Assembly: GCA_014859965.1 (NCBI GenBank)
Contig: JACZKQ010000074.1
Span: 62,001-126,000, forward strand
DNA length: 64,000 bases
Direction: 5' to 3'
DNA from: Phycisphaerae bacterium
GTDB taxonomy: Bacteria > Planctomycetota > Phycisphaerae > Sedimentisphaerales > Anaerohalosphaeraceae
Of the stretch, positions 27,540 to 34,338 are shown piece by piece. Numbering within the stretch: position 1 is the first letter of the stretch; each line of letters starts with the position of its first letter. The notes below the pieces were generated by a model. It saw only the letters and a list, made by a program, of their open reading frames with translations. It searched no databases and had not been told where the DNA came from. A program made the position numbers and the translations under genes.

Positions 27540-28167
27540 AGTGTTCCAATCTCCTTTGAACCATCTGGGTCTGTGCATTCACAGTTCAGCGTCGTTGCCT
27601 TGCTCCCGGCGAACTGCTATGGGGATGAACCCGCTTTTTGAAGGCGGGAACATCCCCAGCAGATCAACAGGCCAGAGTGACATCCATTTATCAATACAAA
27701 GACACAAGAGCTTCACAATTAAGGGGCGCACCCCCTCACAGAAATCCGTTTCCCTGCGCCCGGGTGGATTACCCATACAGGTACGTGCGATGAGTAAGCG
27801 AACGAGAACGGCAAGTGTTGATAGTCTTTTTTGGAATTTTTCAAAAATTTTTTAAAAGGGCGTTTTTACCGGCGCAAGCGGGGGTTTTCAGGGTCACCGA
27901 CGACTTATGCCTGGACCCTTCAGGCACAAATGTTAGCCGCGGACGCTTGCGGTTAACCTGCGTCCGGATATGACCGATGCTTACTACGTGAGGTCAGCGA
28001 ATGTCTCAAAACGGCTGCTCCGGCTTTAACGACCCGGAAATGCGCCAATTCGCTATGAGGACGGGTGATTATCAGCTTGCCGGCAGGGCCCACATGGTCG
28101 TCGGCAGGAGGGTGCCATCGCTCCGTTTTCACTCAACAAATGATGCATGGATATCCGGAGAATCGTG
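27540..28167. other. Non-coding region with several inverted repeats
   Basis: These 628 bases lie between two divergent genes. I see no convincing gene. They contain a strong hairpin at 27,616-27,660; a 7-bp stem of GGGCGCA/TGCGCCC at 27,724-27,761; a short AT palindrome AATTTTT-C-AAAAATT at 27,835-27,849; a TGCCTG/CAGGCA hairpin near 27,908; and a CGGACGC/GCGTCCG stem near 27,940-27,970. The last elements could belong to a structured leader of the dockerin gene. No known riboswitch was recognised. Confidence 0.4.
27616..27660. other. Strong long hairpin, candidate structured RNA
   Basis: GGGGATG at 27621-27627 pairs with CATCCCC at 27651-27657. Inside, CCCGC pairs with GCGGG, extended by weaker pairs, with small symmetric AA internal loops between the stems. 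Outer GCT/AGC pairing extends it. No T-run follows, so it is not a simple terminator. On the minus strand it lies about 80 bases upstream of the small gene starting at 27539. Confidence 0.5.
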
Positions 28168-29505
28168 ATGAAAAAGGAAGGTTTGATTCTGTGTTTACAT
28201 ATCGCTCTGGCTGCATTCGCCCAGGCCGCGGTGCGGGTCGATGTGTATGAAGCCGACGAGGTGACGCCGTTTGACGGCCGACCCTTGATGGTGGGCAGCG
28301 AACTGTCACTTGTAGTCTCCTCGGATACTGGTGATTACTGGGGCGGCGGGCTGTTTATCGAAGGCCCCGACAGGACGAGTGCCTGTCTGTCGGCCAGGGG
28401 CTTTAATCCCAACACGTGTGACTGGCAGGGGTCCCACTATGCCGGCGCCGGCGATGACGCGCGGGTTATCAGTTGGAAGGATCCGATTATGTGGGGATTT
28501 GATCTTTACACTTCGGATACCACTGGAATGCCGGGGAAATGGTTCGTGATCGATTATCGGGCCACCGGTAGCGGCGACCCAAATGTCCGGGTATACGACC
28601 ACGCCGCCAGCTTCAGCATCCCCAGCGATATAATCCAGTTTTCGCATGTGCCGTCACGTGATTTCAACGGCGACGGTGTGGTCAATATCGCCGATTACGT
28701 ACTGCTTGCCTCGCACTGGCTGGTTGAGGACTGCAATGAGCCAAATGGCTGCGGCCGGGTGGACATCAACGCCGACGGGTACGTAGACGTGCAGGACCTG
28801 GCGCTCTTTGCGGATTACTGGATGTGGGGAGTTCCACGGGTCCCGATCGTGGCGGTGGAGCCGGAGGTGACTTTCCGGATTGCCGATGCCATGGGATCAA
28901 ACGACATCAGTCTTTCCGCAGGTGAGTCCGTCATACTTTATGTCATGATGGAGAGAGGCGATGTTCCGATTCATACGTTCCACATTGAAGTGGATATAAA
29001 TAACCCGACCATCGGCAGTATTGACAATACGCCGTACGATCCTGATAACCCCCCGGGACCGGGCACTGCCCGTATTCTGGCGAAGCCGCGCGACGCGTTC
29101 TTTGATGATTGGGGTCCGGGTCAGTTGCAGCCCGAGGGAATCGCTTTAGGTGGAGTCTCTATTTCATCGCCCATGGCGGACGGGCCGCTGGCCAGCTTTG
29201 TCTACACCAGTCTGGGGACCGGTGACGTTACGCTGCACCTTTCAGATCTGCTTGCCGCTTACGATGTGCGGCTGGAGCCCATCGTGATCCACCAGGTAAC
29301 CCTTGGGATGCAGGCGACGTTCGGCGAAATGTCCTCCCCGGAGGAGAGCACACAGCCGTCTTCCGCTGCGCGTGATGTCGATGCGATCGTGGGTTTCCTG
29401 GAAGAGATATGGATCACTGAGGGCGATATGCAGGCCCTCGTCAGCGAAGCGGAGTGGCATACTTTTATCAACAGCGTCAAGCAGTCCGATTCACTTATCC
29501 AGTAG
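28168..29505 (+). CDS. Secreted dockerin-containing protein
   Basis: This 445-residue exported protein starts MKKEGLILCLHIALAAFAQA, a signal peptide. A first beta domain (about 20-155) follows. A type I dockerin pair then occurs at about residues 165-224: DFNGDGVVNIADYVLLASHWL and DINADGYVDVQDLALFADYWM, each with a calcium loop. The C-terminal half (about 240-390) has a cohesin-like beta pattern (VILYVMMERGDVPIHTFHIE), ending in a helical tail. ATG 28168 with GGAG seven bases upstream is preferred over ATG 28147. Dockerin repeats in planctomycetes need not mean cellulosomes. It precedes a C39-like peptidase gene by 34 bp. Confidence 0.8.
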   Translation: MKKEGLILCLHIALAAFAQAAVRVDVYEADEVTPFDGRPLMVGSELSLVVSSDTGDYWGGGLFIEGPDRTSACLSARGFNPNTCDWQGSHYAGAGDDARVISWKDPIMWGFDLYTSDTTGMPGKWFVIDYRATGSGDPNVRVYDHAASFSIPSDIIQFSHVPSRDFNGDGVVNIADYVLLASHWLVEDCNEPNGCGRVDINADGYVDVQDLALFADYWMWGVPRVPIVAVEPEVTFRIADAMGSNDISLSAGESVILYVMMERGDVPIHTFHIEVDINNPTIGSIDNTPYDPDNPPGPGTARILAKPRDAFFDDWGPGQLQPEGIALGGVSISSPMADGPLASFVYTSLGTGDVTLHLSDLLAAYDVRLEPIVIHQVTLGMQATFGEMSSPEESTQPSSAARDVDAIVGFLEEIWITEGDMQALVSEAEWHTFINSVKQSDSLIQ

Positions 29506-29539: not shown

Positions 29540-31213
29540 ATGCAGAAGAAATGTATTTTTTTGGCAGTAGTTGTGTTGAGTACTGTTTACGGCCGGGCCG
29601 CCGGGCAGAGGCCGCTGGATCGCGCGGAAATACTGGACCTTTTGAAGGTTTTGACCGATGAGCCCCGGGATACGTGGATTTCATCCGGAGTGGTCCATGC
29701 AACGCGTCTCGAATACAGGGCTGCAACGGATCAAATTACGGAGTCCACAGTCCAGATCCGCTACGACGGCCACAAGTTCTACTGGGAAATCGATACCGAT
29801 TCAGCCAGTTTGCCGCCGGATGCGCAGCAGGGCAACCCGCGTGAGGTCGCTGACATGAAGTTGAACGCTCGTCGCGTCTTCGCGTGGGACGGCCAGCGGT
29901 ACACCGTTTACTCCAAGCAGGGCAATAATGCGATTGTCTTTGAGGACACCAGCACGATTCCCGTTGTGGTGAACGGTCCCTTGACCGCCGGCGTGATTCC
30001 ATGGGGATATGGGAAATTCACGTATGATGTGCTGTCCGGTGCGGAAGTGTCCGGAATTGAAACACAGCGGGAAGGGTTGACAATAATTGAGCTGACGGTC
30101 CGTATGACCGAGACGTTGCAGATGACGTGCGTCCTGGATCGCGACAAAGATTACGCGGTGCTGTCGAATACGGTGCGCAATGAGGGCCGGTCGCTGACCG
30201 TGAGGACGTATGACGGATACCGCCGGGTGGGCGGCCGGTGGGTGCCCCAGGTCGTGCAGATCGAGACCTTCGACGACAGCGGCAAACCGGCCCGGCTAAC
30301 GTCATACGATCACTGGAACCTGACACGTGTCAGCACGCAGATCCCCACGTCGAATCCCTTCGTCGTAGACATGGAGCCGGAAGCGTTTATCGAAGAGTAC
30401 ACGAAACTGTCGAAGAAACCGCTGACGTATTATCAACGTGAGCACGCGGACACGGAGTCACTGCGCCGAATGCGGCTGGAAATCATTGCGGCCGGGAAAG
30501 GGCGTAACGCTAACTGTGGAACGATAACCACACAATATGTCATGTCGCGTTGGAAGAAAAATATCACGCAGCAGCAGAGAACCTTGCTGGGCGAAAGCGA
30601 TGACGCAAGCACAAGTCTTTACACTATAAAACAGGTGCTGGCCGGTGCGGGGCTCAACTGCAGGGCAGTCAAAACGGACATAGATACTCTGCGTACACTG
30701 AGGAATTGTTCGGTGATTCTGCATCTGCCGGGCCGAAACCATTTTGTTGTGCTCGATCACATTGACGACCAGCGGGTATGGTTGGTTGATCTGGACCATG
30801 ACCGATTCTATTTTCCAGTGGGAATTGACCTGTTTACGCTCGACTGGCCGAGCGGTACGGCACTGCTGGTGTCGGCAGAACCGCTGCCGTTGTCAGCCGA
30901 ATCCGTGGAGATTCCGGATGCGCGGCTTAGGAAACTTGTGGGAGCCGACAGCCTTGGCACCTACTCGTGTACGCAGCGGATACAAGAATACCGCATTGTC
31001 TATTGCAGCCCCGCTATTGGCATGGTTTGTGCCGGCAGATATCGCGTTTACCCTGAGCTGTTCGGATGTGAATTAAGCGAAGGCGGCGGCGGTTGCGCCG
31101 GCGGCCCCGTGGCAGGTTCTTGGTACTTGGACTGTATCGAAAAGCCGTCCGACCCCGGCGAATGCGGCGTGACCGGTGAGTGGATTGTTCTTTACATTCA
31201 TGCATGTAAGTAG
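29540..31213 (+). CDS. Secreted C39-like cysteine peptidase with Cys-rich tail
   Basis: This 557-residue exported protein has a signal peptide (MQKKCIFLAVVVLSTVYGRA) and a beta-rich N-terminal region to about residue 300. A C39-type peptidase domain follows with the catalytic Cys in NANCGTITTQYV, His in NHFVVLDHID and an acidic residue in VWLVDLDHD. C39 domains usually cleave double-glycine leaders and are fused to ABC exporters; no ATPase or membrane domain is fused here. The last about 80 residues contain eight Cys. ATG 29540 has GGGAG upstream. It lies between the dockerin gene and a prepilin-like gene. Confidence 0.72.
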   Translation: MQKKCIFLAVVVLSTVYGRAAGQRPLDRAEILDLLKVLTDEPRDTWISSGVVHATRLEYRAATDQITESTVQIRYDGHKFYWEIDTDSASLPPDAQQGNPREVADMKLNARRVFAWDGQRYTVYSKQGNNAIVFEDTSTIPVVVNGPLTAGVIPWGYGKFTYDVLSGAEVSGIETQREGLTIIELTVRMTETLQMTCVLDRDKDYAVLSNTVRNEGRSLTVRTYDGYRRVGGRWVPQVVQIETFDDSGKPARLTSYDHWNLTRVSTQIPTSNPFVVDMEPEAFIEEYTKLSKKPLTYYQREHADTESLRRMRLEIIAAGKGRNANCGTITTQYVMSRWKKNITQQQRTLLGESDDASTSLYTIKQVLAGAGLNCRAVKTDIDTLRTLRNCSVILHLPGRNHFVVLDHIDDQRVWLVDLDHDRFYFPVGIDLFTLDWPSGTALLVSAEPLPLSAESVEIPDARLRKLVGADSLGTYSCTQRIQEYRIVYCSPAIGMVCAGRYRVYPELFGCELSEGGGGCAGGPVAGSWYLDCIEKPSDPGECGVTGEWIVLYIHACK

Positions 31214-31282: not shown

Positions 31283-32077
31283 ATGAATCGCCATGGTTTT
31301 TCGCTGATAGAACTGCTTGTCGTCATTGCCGTTATCTCTTTGCTGATGGGGGCCTTGTCGCCTGGTTTGTGGTCTGCCAGACAGCAGGCGCAGGCTGTTT
31401 GGTGTACCTCCAATATGAAGCAGTTAAGCCTGGCCCTGATGATTTATGAGGAGGCGAATGGGAGGTTTCCCTACGCGTTTGATGACAGGATGGGGCAACC
31501 CATTCCAAACGGCGGGCATCCCGGCGATCCCCTGTGCGACAACATGGGGATATGGTGGTTGCATCAGCTCGAGGGTTTCATCGATGCCATTCTCGACAGG
31601 AATTCCCCGGCTTGGTGTGCGGCCCGCAAAGTCAAGGACCGCGGATTAGAGGCCAATATCCTCCTCGGCAACTATGGTGTCAATCGGGTGATATTGACGG
31701 ATTTGCAGGGCCCAGCGGGAGGTGAGTTTGTGGGTCCGCCATTAGGGCTGAAGCAGATCCGTCATCCCTCGGCCGTGCTGTTAATCACCGACAGCGGCTA
31801 CAGTCAGATAAGCTGGTATGGGGCGGCCGACAACGTCGTGCAGCGTTTTGAGAATGTAAACCGGGAACAGGCGTTCTATGTGCCCGGGCTTTCCATTAAC
31901 GTCAATCGTACATTCCCGCCGCTGTTTCACGAGGATGCTGTGAAAGGCCGGCACCCGAGAAGGACCATTAATGTGACCTATGCCGATGGCCACGTTAACC
32001 GCGCCAAAGCTGAGAGTCTGCTTGTGGAAGAAATCGGAGGGGGTTGGGCGAATCGTTCGCCCCTTTGGGTGCCGTAA
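31283..32077 (+). CDS. Prepilin-like protein with H-X9-DG-type C-terminus (DUF1559-like)
   Basis: This 264-residue protein has a canonical prepilin cleavage site HG/FSLIELLVVIAVISLL with Glu at +5 and a long hydrophobic helix. The body contains WCTSNMKQLSLALMIYEEANG, and the C-terminus has HPRRTINVTYADGHVNRAKAE, fitting the H-X9-DG signature of planctomycete prepilin-like proteins. ATG 31283 (MNRHGF) is chosen; ATG 31274 and a GTG at 31241 are alternatives. Processing would use a prepilin peptidase not seen in this window. It ends 10 bp from the convergent anti-sigma gene. Confidence 0.87.
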   Translation: MNRHGFSLIELLVVIAVISLLMGALSPGLWSARQQAQAVWCTSNMKQLSLALMIYEEANGRFPYAFDDRMGQPIPNGGHPGDPLCDNMGIWWLHQLEGFIDAILDRNSPAWCAARKVKDRGLEANILLGNYGVNRVILTDLQGPAGGEFVGPPLGLKQIRHPSAVLLITDSGYSQISWYGAADNVVQRFENVNREQAFYVPGLSINVNRTFPPLFHEDAVKGRHPRRTINVTYADGHVNRAKAESLLVEEIGGGWANRSPLWVP

Positions 32078-32087
32078 GTCAGGATAT

Positions 32088-33746
32088 TTACAGGCCGAGC
32101 TGCTTGATTAAGGCCTGAATGGACGCGCCGTCGGGATAGGCGATTTCCATATACTGGTTTAACGTGTACTCTGCTGTCGAGTCCATCCTGCTGTAGGATT
32201 CCGTTCTGAGGGGTCGTTTGGTATCGGGGTGCACATAGCCGCGCCATTTGCAGTAAACCGGTTCGCCGCCCAATGCCTTGTCTGTCCAGGTCATTTCATA
32301 GATGTGCGTTCCTTGCAGACCTGCATCGGTGACATCGTCCTCAAGGCGGTGCCATGTTGCGCCCTCAGGCGCGTTGGACAGTTTCGCGAAAGGCAGAATG
32401 TCCATGGGACCCGTCAGCGTTCCTGCCACTTTTGCAATCGTTTCACTATCCAGAGGGATTGTCTGATGTTGTCCCGTCGTGGCGTTGGCAAGTTTCCGGG
32501 CATTTGCCTCAAGATCCCAAAGATCGTACTGGTCTCCTGTTCTATACAGTTTAAGCTTCGGGTTCTGGCATATCCATATTTCCTGGAGGGCTTCTGCCCG
32601 CTGCCCGTCAAAGCGCTTGATGTGCATCGTATTAACGGCGGCCAGTTCCGCGTAGACACGGCTCAAATCCGTTGCTTTGACACTTGTGCCGTAAAGCAGG
32701 AGCACGGCCGCCAGAAAAACCGCAGCGGCGGCGGCGGCCGGTTTCAGGAACGGCCTTAAATGCGGATATAACCGTGCCGTTTGGCGACATGATTTTTCTG
32801 ATTCGAGCGGCTGGCTGTGGTCGGCAGACGGGGCGTGCTCAGGCCGTACACTTGCTGTGATATGGCTGGCGACCGCCGTCCGGGCCCGCGACAGATCGGC
32901 CATCGTGAAGCAGGTCACAATGCCGGATGCAGGACGCTCCATGATATGGGTGAGAGCGCCAAGCAGTGCCTGCAATTTGTCCATGCATCGACGACACGAG
33001 GACACATGCGCGAGCAGCGATGGGGACCATTCGGTGGGGGGCTCCGCAGCCGGGTCGACGCCATAGGGGAGACAGAGATCAAAGAGATGCCCGCAGGTGA
33101 CATCCTCGCATGAGCAGCCGTTGCGAGTGTGCTGCGGTTGAAGGCTCTTGGCAAGGGTCCAGCGTTCCTGCACCAGCAGGCGGCGGCAATCTGCACAGAG
33201 GCAGATATGCTTCAATACCGCCGGGGCGATGTCCTGGAAGTTTATTGCTGCTACGGAGCCTATGGCCTTGCGCGCCGTCCGGCATGTTTCATGGTCATGA
33301 CGCCCGGTTTCAGCCAGCATCTGACCCAGAAGGCAGTGCTGTCGGTGCGTCAGATGCAGGCGGCGGAGGGTCTCAATGTCGTCGGCGCATGCGGGGCATT
33401 CACGAATGTGCTCAGTGACGGGGGTGGGGCCCGGCACCTCGAACAGCAGATCGACCATGGGCGCAAGAAATGGCTTGACGGCATTGCAGTCGACACTACG
33501 GCCAAGAAGGGCCATGTGGAGTTCGAGATTTGCCGTAGAGGCGGCAACATCGACGTCGCACCGACAGGCGCCGGCCTGGTGATCCATGGCGGCGTTCAGA
33601 CGGTCGACTTCGGTCTTGCACCGGTCGCACCGGCCGATGTGATGCCATATGTTTTCCGGGATGTCGGTCGTCCTGTACCCGCAGAGAAAGTCATAGTAGT
33701 ACGGCCGGGCCATGTTGCAGGTCACCACGTGATCAGATATCTTCAT
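32088..33746 (-). CDS. Membrane anti-sigma factor with four tandem zinc-finger-like motifs
   Basis: This 552-residue protein probably sequesters the adjacent ECF sigma factor. Its cytoplasmic half has four His-x3-Cys-x2-Cys motifs (HIGRCDRC near residue 36, HIRECPAC, HICLCADC, HVSSCRRC), each preceded by another Cys 20-40 residues earlier. This is the zinc-binding anti-sigma (ZAS) pattern, four times over. A membrane helix lies at about residues 330-352 (AAAAAAVFLAAVLLLYG). The periplasmic part has about 200 residues, including WDLEANARKLANA and WRGYVHPDTKRPLRTESY. GGAGGGG precedes the ATG. The gene start overlaps the sigma gene end by 14 bp. Function is inferred from arrangement. Confidence 0.82.
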   Translation of the reverse strand: MKISDHVVTCNMARPYYYDFLCGYRTTDIPENIWHHIGRCDRCKTEVDRLNAAMDHQAGACRCDVDVAASTANLELHMALLGRSVDCNAVKPFLAPMVDLLFEVPGPTPVTEHIRECPACADDIETLRRLHLTHRQHCLLGQMLAETGRHDHETCRTARKAIGSVAAINFQDIAPAVLKHICLCADCRRLLVQERWTLAKSLQPQHTRNGCSCEDVTCGHLFDLCLPYGVDPAAEPPTEWSPSLLAHVSSCRRCMDKLQALLGALTHIMERPASGIVTCFTMADLSRARTAVASHITASVRPEHAPSADHSQPLESEKSCRQTARLYPHLRPFLKPAAAAAAVFLAAVLLLYGTSVKATDLSRVYAELAAVNTMHIKRFDGQRAEALQEIWICQNPKLKLYRTGDQYDLWDLEANARKLANATTGQHQTIPLDSETIAKVAGTLTGPMDILPFAKLSNAPEGATWHRLEDDVTDAGLQGTHIYEMTWTDKALGGEPVYCKWRGYVHPDTKRPLRTESYSRMDSTAEYTLNQYMEIAYPDGASIQALIKQLGL

Positions 33747-34338
33747 CGTTGTACCCCTCCCCATCGGACACCAACTGTCTTAATTTCTCGAGTCCAACCG
33801 ACACATACCGGCTCAACGTTTTTGGTTTAATGTTCATCCTTCTGGCCGCTTCCGCATTTGTATAATTGTCTCGGAAACGGAGAGTGACCGCCTCGGCTTC
33901 CGTGCGGCTCAGCCGGGTTTCTATAAGGTCAAAGAGTTTCAGGGCTTGCTCCCTGTCCATGACTACTGTGTCGGGTGTGTCCGGCAGAACTCCGGTGCGC
34001 GAGTAGATTCCGCAGGTCTCGATCGCGGAGCGATGGACCATGAGACGCCTGCGGTAATCCACTATATCGTTTACGATAGCCCTGTAGAGATAGCTTCTGA
34101 TATTGGTCACATACGAGGGAATTGGGTTTGCTACGATGGATAGAAAAAAGTCGTGGTAGAAATCGTGCGCCTCGTGGGCATCTTTGACATTCAATCGAAT
34201 AACTGTGCGGATGAACTCGCCATATTCGAGAAATATCTCTGCAGCGGCCTTAACGCTGTGGCGTATTCTTCGTTTTACCGGCAGGGCCTGCGACAAGGCG
34301 AACATCTCCTGGTACCTACGGTCTGCCGCACGTTTCAA
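33733..34338 (-). CDS. ECF-type RNA polymerase sigma factor
   Basis: This 201-residue sigma factor has region 2 (IRTVIRLNVKDAHEAHDFYH; SYLYRAIVNDIVDYRRR) and region 4 (LSRTEAEAVTLRFRDNYTNA, then EAARRMNIKPKTLSRYVSVG) with a helix-turn-helix. It is cotranscribed with the overlapping anti-sigma gene. The start is uncertain: TTG 34338 is used here, while ATG 34305 has AGGAG directly adjacent, which is poorly spaced. A consensus promoter lies at 34367-34394. It is divergent from the giant gene. Confidence 0.85.
   Translation of the reverse strand: MKRAADRRYQEMFALSQALPVKRRIRHSVKAAAEIFLEYGEFIRTVIRLNVKDAHEAHDFYHDFFLSIVANPIPSYVTNIRSYLYRAIVNDIVDYRRRLMVHRSAIETCGIYSRTGVLPDTPDTVVMDREQALKLFDLIETRLSRTEAEAVTLRFRDNYTNAEAARRMNIKPKTLSRYVSVGLEKLRQLVSDGEGYNDEDI

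Follow-up and report, generated by a model that had tools for sequence, protein, structure and literature searches.

A C39 peptidase of Phycisphaerae-class planctomycetes that probably matures its own eight-cysteine tail

In the available parts of the literature, C39 peptidases are familiar chiefly as domains of ABC exporters, where leaders are trimmed during export (PMC6363468, PMC10885120). The window analyzed here, that is, the whole 64,000-nucleotide stretch of DNA, encodes a C39 protein that stands apart from any such exporter, and the question that this locus raises is what its peptidase cuts. Our analysis points to the protein's own tail as the most likely substrate because a conserved ComA-type site directly precedes the cysteine tail, and we consider the protein to be, probably, a secreted precursor that bears its own maturation protease. 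Its parts follow one another in the order signal-peptide-like start, LolA/LolB-like domain, C39 peptidase, double-glycine leader, and eight-cysteine domain (Table 1).

Table 1. Features of the C39 locus, in coordinates of the window
Feature	Position	Strand	Details
Dockerin protein, signal-peptide-like start, first gene of apparent operon	28147..29505	+	Pfam Dockerin_1, E 5.8e-8
C39 protein gene	29540..31213	+	557 aa plus stop; frame confirmed exactly
Signal-peptide-like N terminus, residues 1-22	29540..29605	+	Hydrophobic stretch; model helix 2-17
LolA/LolB-like beta domain, residues 25-290	29612..30409	+	Foldseek, VIA-align
C39 peptidase domain, residues 303-447	30446..30880	+	Pfam, conserved catalytic residues, VIA-align
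Cys326	30515-30517	+	Catalytic residue, C39 domain
His401	30740-30742	+	Catalytic residue, C39 domain
Asp417	30788-30790	+	Catalytic residue, C39 domain
ComA-type double-glycine leader, residues 455-469	30902..30946	+	..I-PDAR-L-RK-L-V-G-A; alignment, pattern match
Predicted cut after Ala469	between bases 30946 and 30947	+	Leader motif
Predicted released peptide, residues 470-557	30947..31210	+	88 aa, eight Cys, pI about 4.7
Pseudopilin-like protein	31283..32077	+	Prepilin N terminus; DUF1559 match
Putative transmembrane anti-sigma factor	32088..33764	-	H-x3-C-x2-C repeats; hydrophobic segment about residues 339-362; C-terminal part beyond
ECF sigma factor	33733..34338	-	NCBIfam sigma70-ECF, E 5.2e-15

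Profile, fold, and catalytic residues all place the protein in the C39 family. Pfam Peptidase_C39 (PF03412) matched residues 322 to 443 (E 5.6e-11; 42.8 bits against a cutoff of 22), and all 54 members of the family matched the same model at E 0.01 or better. When 55 sequences were compared, the window's included, Cys326 and His401 were present in every one and Asp417 in 54; all three are invariant in the 54 rows of alignment A1, which leaves out the tail-less relative at locus L063 described below. An AlphaFold2 model of the protein made with a 54-row alignment (mean pLDDT 89, pTM 0.86) gave a C39 fold, and the VIA-align list for residues 303 to 448 was headed by the ComA and LahT double-glycine proteases (ComA peptidase 3k8u, Z 13.6 over 131 residues, rmsd 2.6; LahT 6mpz, Z 13.5). 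A preliminary description had named structure prediction of the Cys/His/Asp site and the catalytic cysteine of homologs as checks on the peptidase; the C39 fold of the model and the presence of the cysteine in the homologs agree with it. Other papain-like proteases follow in that list at Z about 11, among them the toxin domain of a CDI system (8ssm, Z 11.4) and PeiR (8z4n, Z 11.2); being not far below ComA, they show that specificity is not fixed by the fold alone.

Classical C39 enzymes have a glutamine at -6 from the catalytic cysteine. This proposed oxyanion glutamine is not conserved in the C39 proteins that we aligned; many homologs have glutamine at -2 and -4 from the cysteine, where the window protein has none. 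Together with HlyB, which is also among the fold neighbors of the C39 domain (VIA-align Z 13.2), this observation lends something to a reading in which the domain is inactive and, like the C39-like domains of type I secretion systems that do not cleave, serves as a chaperone-like receptor, here for leader and tail. However, domains of that kind typically lack the catalytic cysteine, and with Cys, His, and Asp invariant in 54 rows we consider an inactive domain highly improbable. That C39-like domains without activity exist is stated in the available text of PMC5557850, and the role of the proposed oxyanion glutamine is questioned in that of PMC6363468.

No transporter domain in the C39 protein exceeded its cutoff in Pfam or NCBIfam, and the fused transmembrane and ATPase domains of an AMS/PCAT exporter are absent; PHROGs returned a single weak ABC-transporter match, by way of the C39 domain. 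The four highest-scoring 19-residue windows in a hydrophobicity scan all begin at residues 3 to 6. Because of this signal-peptide-like start, the C39 protein should act outside the cytoplasm. The preliminary description had proposed a C39 peptidase with no fused transporter, acting outside the cytoplasm beside a dockerin protein and a prepilin-like protein, and in each of these points it agrees with our results.

Between the N terminus and the peptidase lies a domain resembling LolA3 (9tp6; Foldseek E 7.9e-9, VIA-align Z 11.9) and the DUF1329 protein 4z48 (VIA-align Z 12.2 for 202 residues at rmsd 5.5, covering residues 25 to 278 of the model). LolB 9tpm aligned to the model with a VIA-align Z of 13.1, the aligned range extending to residue 529, and fold searches with the full model listed mostly LolA/LolB and C39 families. 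The window protein shares this N-terminal fold with LolA-, LolB-, and RseB-like proteins but, unlike them, has it fused to a peptidase. Pfam also gave a match under the cutoff (E 0.0052) to the readthrough protein of a plant virus, which was discarded as chance; a PDB sequence search with the C39 protein gave two chance-level matches only, and a PADLOC scan of four proteins gave no match.

The linker between peptidase and tail has the sequence of a double-glycine leader matching the ComA motif. As given in the available parts of the sources, that motif is Phe(-15), Ile(-12), Leu(-7), and Ile(-4) (PMC10885120, PMC6363468), followed by a GG, GA, or GS cut motif (PMC10885120). The window leader has Ile at -12, Leu at -7 and -4, Gly at -2, and Ala at -1; Ser455, at -15, is not hydrophobic. 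Across 54 sequences, hydrophobic residues (ILVMF) occupy -4 in 54, -7 in 45, -12 in 52, and -15 in 36, with Phe at -15 in 24, and position -1 is Gly, Ala, or Ser in 52 (23, 18, and 11, respectively). Gly at -2 is found in 54/54 by construction, the register having been set on the Gly nearest the aligned column. The remaining positions are mostly polar or variable, apart from -3 (32/54) and -19 (43/54), which are often hydrophobic. The GG/GA/GS pair and the hydrophobic residues at -4, -7, -12, and often -15 that characterize a ComA-type leader are present in the linker; the N-terminal position that such a leader has in a small precursor is not, the leader being internal in the fused proteins.

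A strict regular expression for the leader matched 42 of the 54 linkers, and the full pattern with Phe(-15) matched 18; after shuffling of the linkers (1,000 shuffles), the corresponding values were 0.29 and 0.002 per 54. Outside the linker, in 29,585 residues, the strict pattern occurred 15 times and the full Phe(-15) form 0 times. Close relatedness was limited by taking representatives with less than 60% identity, of which 21/29 carry the strict pattern. The 12 linkers that fail it do so at -7 (eight sequences, five with Gln and three with Ala), at -12 (one), or at the Gly-Gly-like pair or its spacing (three). In the AlphaFold2 model, a short helix at residues 460 to 463 corresponds to leader positions -10 to -7, and residues 472 to 475, just past the predicted cut, form one of two segments with pLDDT below 50. 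For LahT, the available text of PMC6363468 describes leader positions -4 to -11 as a two-turn helix that puts -4, -7, and -12 into the protease groove.

The preliminary description had supposed that the peptidase processes other extracellular or cell-surface proteins. The tail would then stay attached as a binding module, with the linker as a hinge, and the C39 domain would cut other proteins of the surface. Conserved neighbors with exported features are at hand, and FapD, an exported C39 peptidase free of a transporter, has a target reported as unclear in the available text of PMC5557850. A mere hinge is difficult to reconcile with a linker that is conserved mainly at leader-recognition positions, however, and a similar leader sits directly on separate Cys-domain precursors in the split arrangement described below. 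Moreover, no recurrent double-glycine leader was found in the four neighbor families, where the pattern occurs anywhere in 3/55 (dockerin protein), 5/49 (pseudopilin, at most 3 at one column), 3/47, and 1/41 sequences. We therefore find it unlikely that the tail stays attached and other proteins are cut. The double-glycine sites that the preliminary description had suggested seeking in the neighbors turned up, conserved, in the chain of the C39 protein itself, and we infer that the C39 domain, once exported, cuts the chain to which it belongs.

The tail contains exactly eight cysteines (residues 477, 489, 497, 510, 519, 532, 542, and 556), as had been noted before, and homologs with the same tail, which the earlier reading had proposed to look for, were found: all eight cysteines are invariant in 52/52 aligned sequences, including the window's. 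From residue 476, the tail forms a separate small beta-rich domain in the model, in which the predicted released peptide has a pLDDT of 84. On our best reading, cleavage would release an acidic peptide, about 88 residues long, that could contain up to four disulfides. At E 0.1, no single Pfam family matched the tails of two or more of the 52 members (best E 0.023), and among PDB folds the best Foldseek match had E 0.67 and none of 999 chains reached a VIA-align Z of 5. Most of the mature parts, as predicted, have an acidic pI (median 4.5, range 4.1 to 8.4, n = 52), and mean pairwise identity is 0.40 in the released part, 0.42 in the peptidase, and 0.31 in linker plus leader. This even conservation and acidity fit a binding or signaling part better than a fast-evolving bacteriocin; therefore, the tail appears to be a conserved binding, structural, or signaling part rather than a diversifying toxin.

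An antimicrobial role for the freed peptide, microcin- or bacteriocin-like, would make the locus a competition system. The domain is cysteine-rich, and the available text of PMC10885120 treats double-glycine leaders and C39 peptidases as typical features of bacteriocins and peptides related to them. Such a role is at odds with the acidity of the mature parts and with their being nearly as conserved as the enzyme. It is also at odds with the genes alongside: among the four scanned neighbors, we recognized no immunity, modification, or ABC export gene, so that the maturation, immunity, and export genes of a RiPP or bacteriocin system are missing from this set. An antimicrobial function thus seems to us decidedly doubtful; it concerns what the peptide does and is compatible with self-cleavage.

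The proposed relation between peptidase and tail can also be examined where the two are apart. Genome G106 carries the fused gene (contig C247) plus a split arrangement (contig C198, locus L063), in which two small open reading frames of 127 and 126 amino acids are followed by a 466-residue LolA-C39 relative that has no tail and stops about where the leader would start. Each small precursor has a signal-peptide-like start and, behind that stretch and still near the N terminus, a leader with F(-15), I/V(-12), A(-7), V/I(-4), and GG, followed by an eight-cysteine domain. Because of the Ala at -7, neither meets the strict pattern. A profile of these precursors aligned along 90 columns with the leader and tail of the fused proteins (E 1.5e-10, probability 96.9). 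The occurrence of protease and substrate both fused and as separate proteins supports a functional link between them. The peptidase activity of the L063 relative is uncertain because it has Gln at the catalytic Asp column and gave no match to the Pfam C39 model.

Free tails were sought in 198 related genomes and 392 genomes of the phylum, and separate precursors were found on this one contig of one genome. A query with both L063 precursors matched 8/198 genomes and revealed no second split locus. Several candidate free tails were rejected: two lay at contig ends (G145:C235 and G104:C158), one was a chance match to a membrane protein (G029:C52), one had no matching frame on reexamination (G034:C113), and rescanning of two weak matches (G129:C146 and G125:C151) gave nothing. 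The reexamination covered these six matches; others, at G064:C7, G079:C653, and G002:C219, were weak or fragmentary.

We determined how constant the surroundings of the C39 gene are. The genes usually run from the dockerin protein through the C39 protein to the pseudopilin, with the anti-sigma-like protein and ECF sigma factor convergent to them. Under distance limits of our own setting, and in 62 named loci that share genomes with the loci of alignments A1 and A2, homologs were counted wherever the contig left room: the dockerin protein upstream on the same strand in 39/48 loci, the pseudopilin downstream in 43/54, the convergent anti-sigma-like protein in 40/48, the sigma factor in place and orientation in 37/48, and all four neighbors in 25/36. 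In five named loci (L123, L130, L131, L132, and L140), the best dockerin-protein match was on the other strand. The anti-sigma role of the H-x3-C-x2-C protein is suggested by its position and layout; no Pfam family exceeded its cutoff on this protein. A profile comparison of its C-terminal part with the LolA-like domain of the C39 protein was negative, and 3/36 of its members matched Pfam LolA_like weakly (best E 0.0063). When the upstream regions of operon and sigma gene were searched for an ECF promoter common to both, nothing clear emerged except A/T runs.

The C39 protein had a match in 90/198 related genomes (E ≤ 0.001), a count that includes its own genome, fragments at contig ends, and one weak match outside the order. 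Because of this count and the usually conserved neighbors, the protein is more than a chance occurrence. In a class-wide sample, 36/298 genomes matched at E ≤ 1e-5, including two outside the order, both partial, and a phylum-wide query with the tail matched 7/392 genomes, the window's own included, all of the same order. Full-length matches are therefore confined, among the genomes sampled, to the window's order within the class Phycisphaerae, several members of which are 98 to 99% complete and have no match. A contig database gave 0 relatives to a single-protein query and 62 to an alignment query. The titles of the 62 named loci mark all of them as metagenome-derived genomes; 59 bear planctomycete names (Planctomycetota, Phycisphaerae, Phycisphaerales, Sedimentisphaerales, and others) and 3 read "uncultured bacterium." The aligned homologs are 55 distinct proteins from the best 30 matches and 40 chosen places, of the 90 matching genomes; alignment A2 leaves out L048 and L068, which are cut by contig ends, and alignment A4 uses 36 of 43 listed sequences.

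With the ComA/LahT-type peptidases of AMS/PCAT exporters, the window protein shares the C39 fold and catalytic residues, and its family shares the leader motif at -15/-12/-7/-4 plus GG/GA/GS. In contrast to them, it has no ABC transporter, has its own signal-peptide-like start and a LolA-like partner domain, and carries the substrate leader in the same chain, C-terminal to the peptidase. The nearest functional precedent that we found is FapD of the Pseudomonas functional amyloid, likewise a transporter-free C39 peptidase, with a Sec signal; the available text of PMC5557850 describes it as periplasmic, calls its target unclear, and mentions no fused substrate. A FapD model was matched at E 0.01 or better by 27/54 members (best 6.8e-7), and the window protein scored 15.1 bits against the NCBIfam FapD equivalog model, whose cutoff is 330. 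No Fap proteins were recognized among the four scanned neighbors. By these tests, the window protein is neither an AMS/PCAT exporter nor FapD. FilB, a putative C39 peptidase of a pilus system (NCBIfam NF050078), was matched by 5/54 members at E 0.01 or better and by the window protein itself not at all at E up to 1; a search for literature on the filABCDEF pilus system found nothing. The window protein is distinguished by a leader and substrate within its own chain, by predicted export through Sec, and by its LolA-like domain, and no paper on such a fusion or locus was among the open-access literature matches listed.

In the mechanism that we propose, Sec would export the whole chain. Outside the cytoplasm, the leader segment would dock on the C39 domain of the same or a sister molecule, and that domain would then cut, in cis or in trans, after residue 469 to free some 88 residues. 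The LolA-like domain, for its part, may serve to hold partners or to position them. More tentatively, the ECF sigma/anti-sigma pair might control or sense the system, and the freed domain, together with the dockerin protein and the pseudopilin, might act at the cell surface. Whether this amounts to a new secretion and maturation logic, with a Sec-exported fusion of C39 peptidase and precursor using self-cleavage in place of an ABC exporter to free a disulfide-rich peptide, is a proposition to which we give about even chances; as part of it, the locus with its own ECF sigma/anti-sigma pair would be a candidate peptide-signaling or surface-assembly system. The fusion suggests a new bacterial route for releasing a small disulfide-rich protein without the usual transporter. 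If the proposal is true, double-glycine processing is uncoupled from ABC export, a conserved disulfide-rich secreted domain that matched nothing in our searches is defined, and a surface system linked to a sigma factor becomes accessible to study in planctomycetes of the class Phycisphaerae. Because the likely substrate is encoded in the same gene, the specificity of an exported C39 peptidase can be tested with one construct.

Other C39 proteins came to light during these searches. In another genome of the order, L178:1350-4145 (-) encodes 932 amino acids with a signal-peptide-like start, TPR-like repeats, and a C39 domain, followed by a leader-like segment, ..FAKLAKKELSNILLG.., that lacks a Gly-Gly pair and by repeats that we take to be of the YD/RHS type. 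It is possibly another in-chain C39 arrangement; as a query against 196 genomes, it found itself and two members of the window's C39 family only. L179:1693-3174 (-) combines a signal-peptide-like start, a C39 domain, and, behind the latter, a region with a CGAC motif, presumably thioredoxin-like, in one protein. Two further C39 matches lie in the window's own genome, at L072:1489-2310 (-) and L073:827-1522 (+), in proteins that have several hydrophobic stretches each and lack a cysteine tail.

The same genome (G000) has 31 dockerin matches and no Pfam Cohesin match. Past the sigma gene, a giant frame at 34561-63999 (+) spans 9,813 amino acids in the window and runs off it; from its coordinates, it is probably the 14,875-amino-acid dockerin-bearing frame of that genome. 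It opens with the motif EQLEDRLLLSA, which we take to be a planctomycete-type start.
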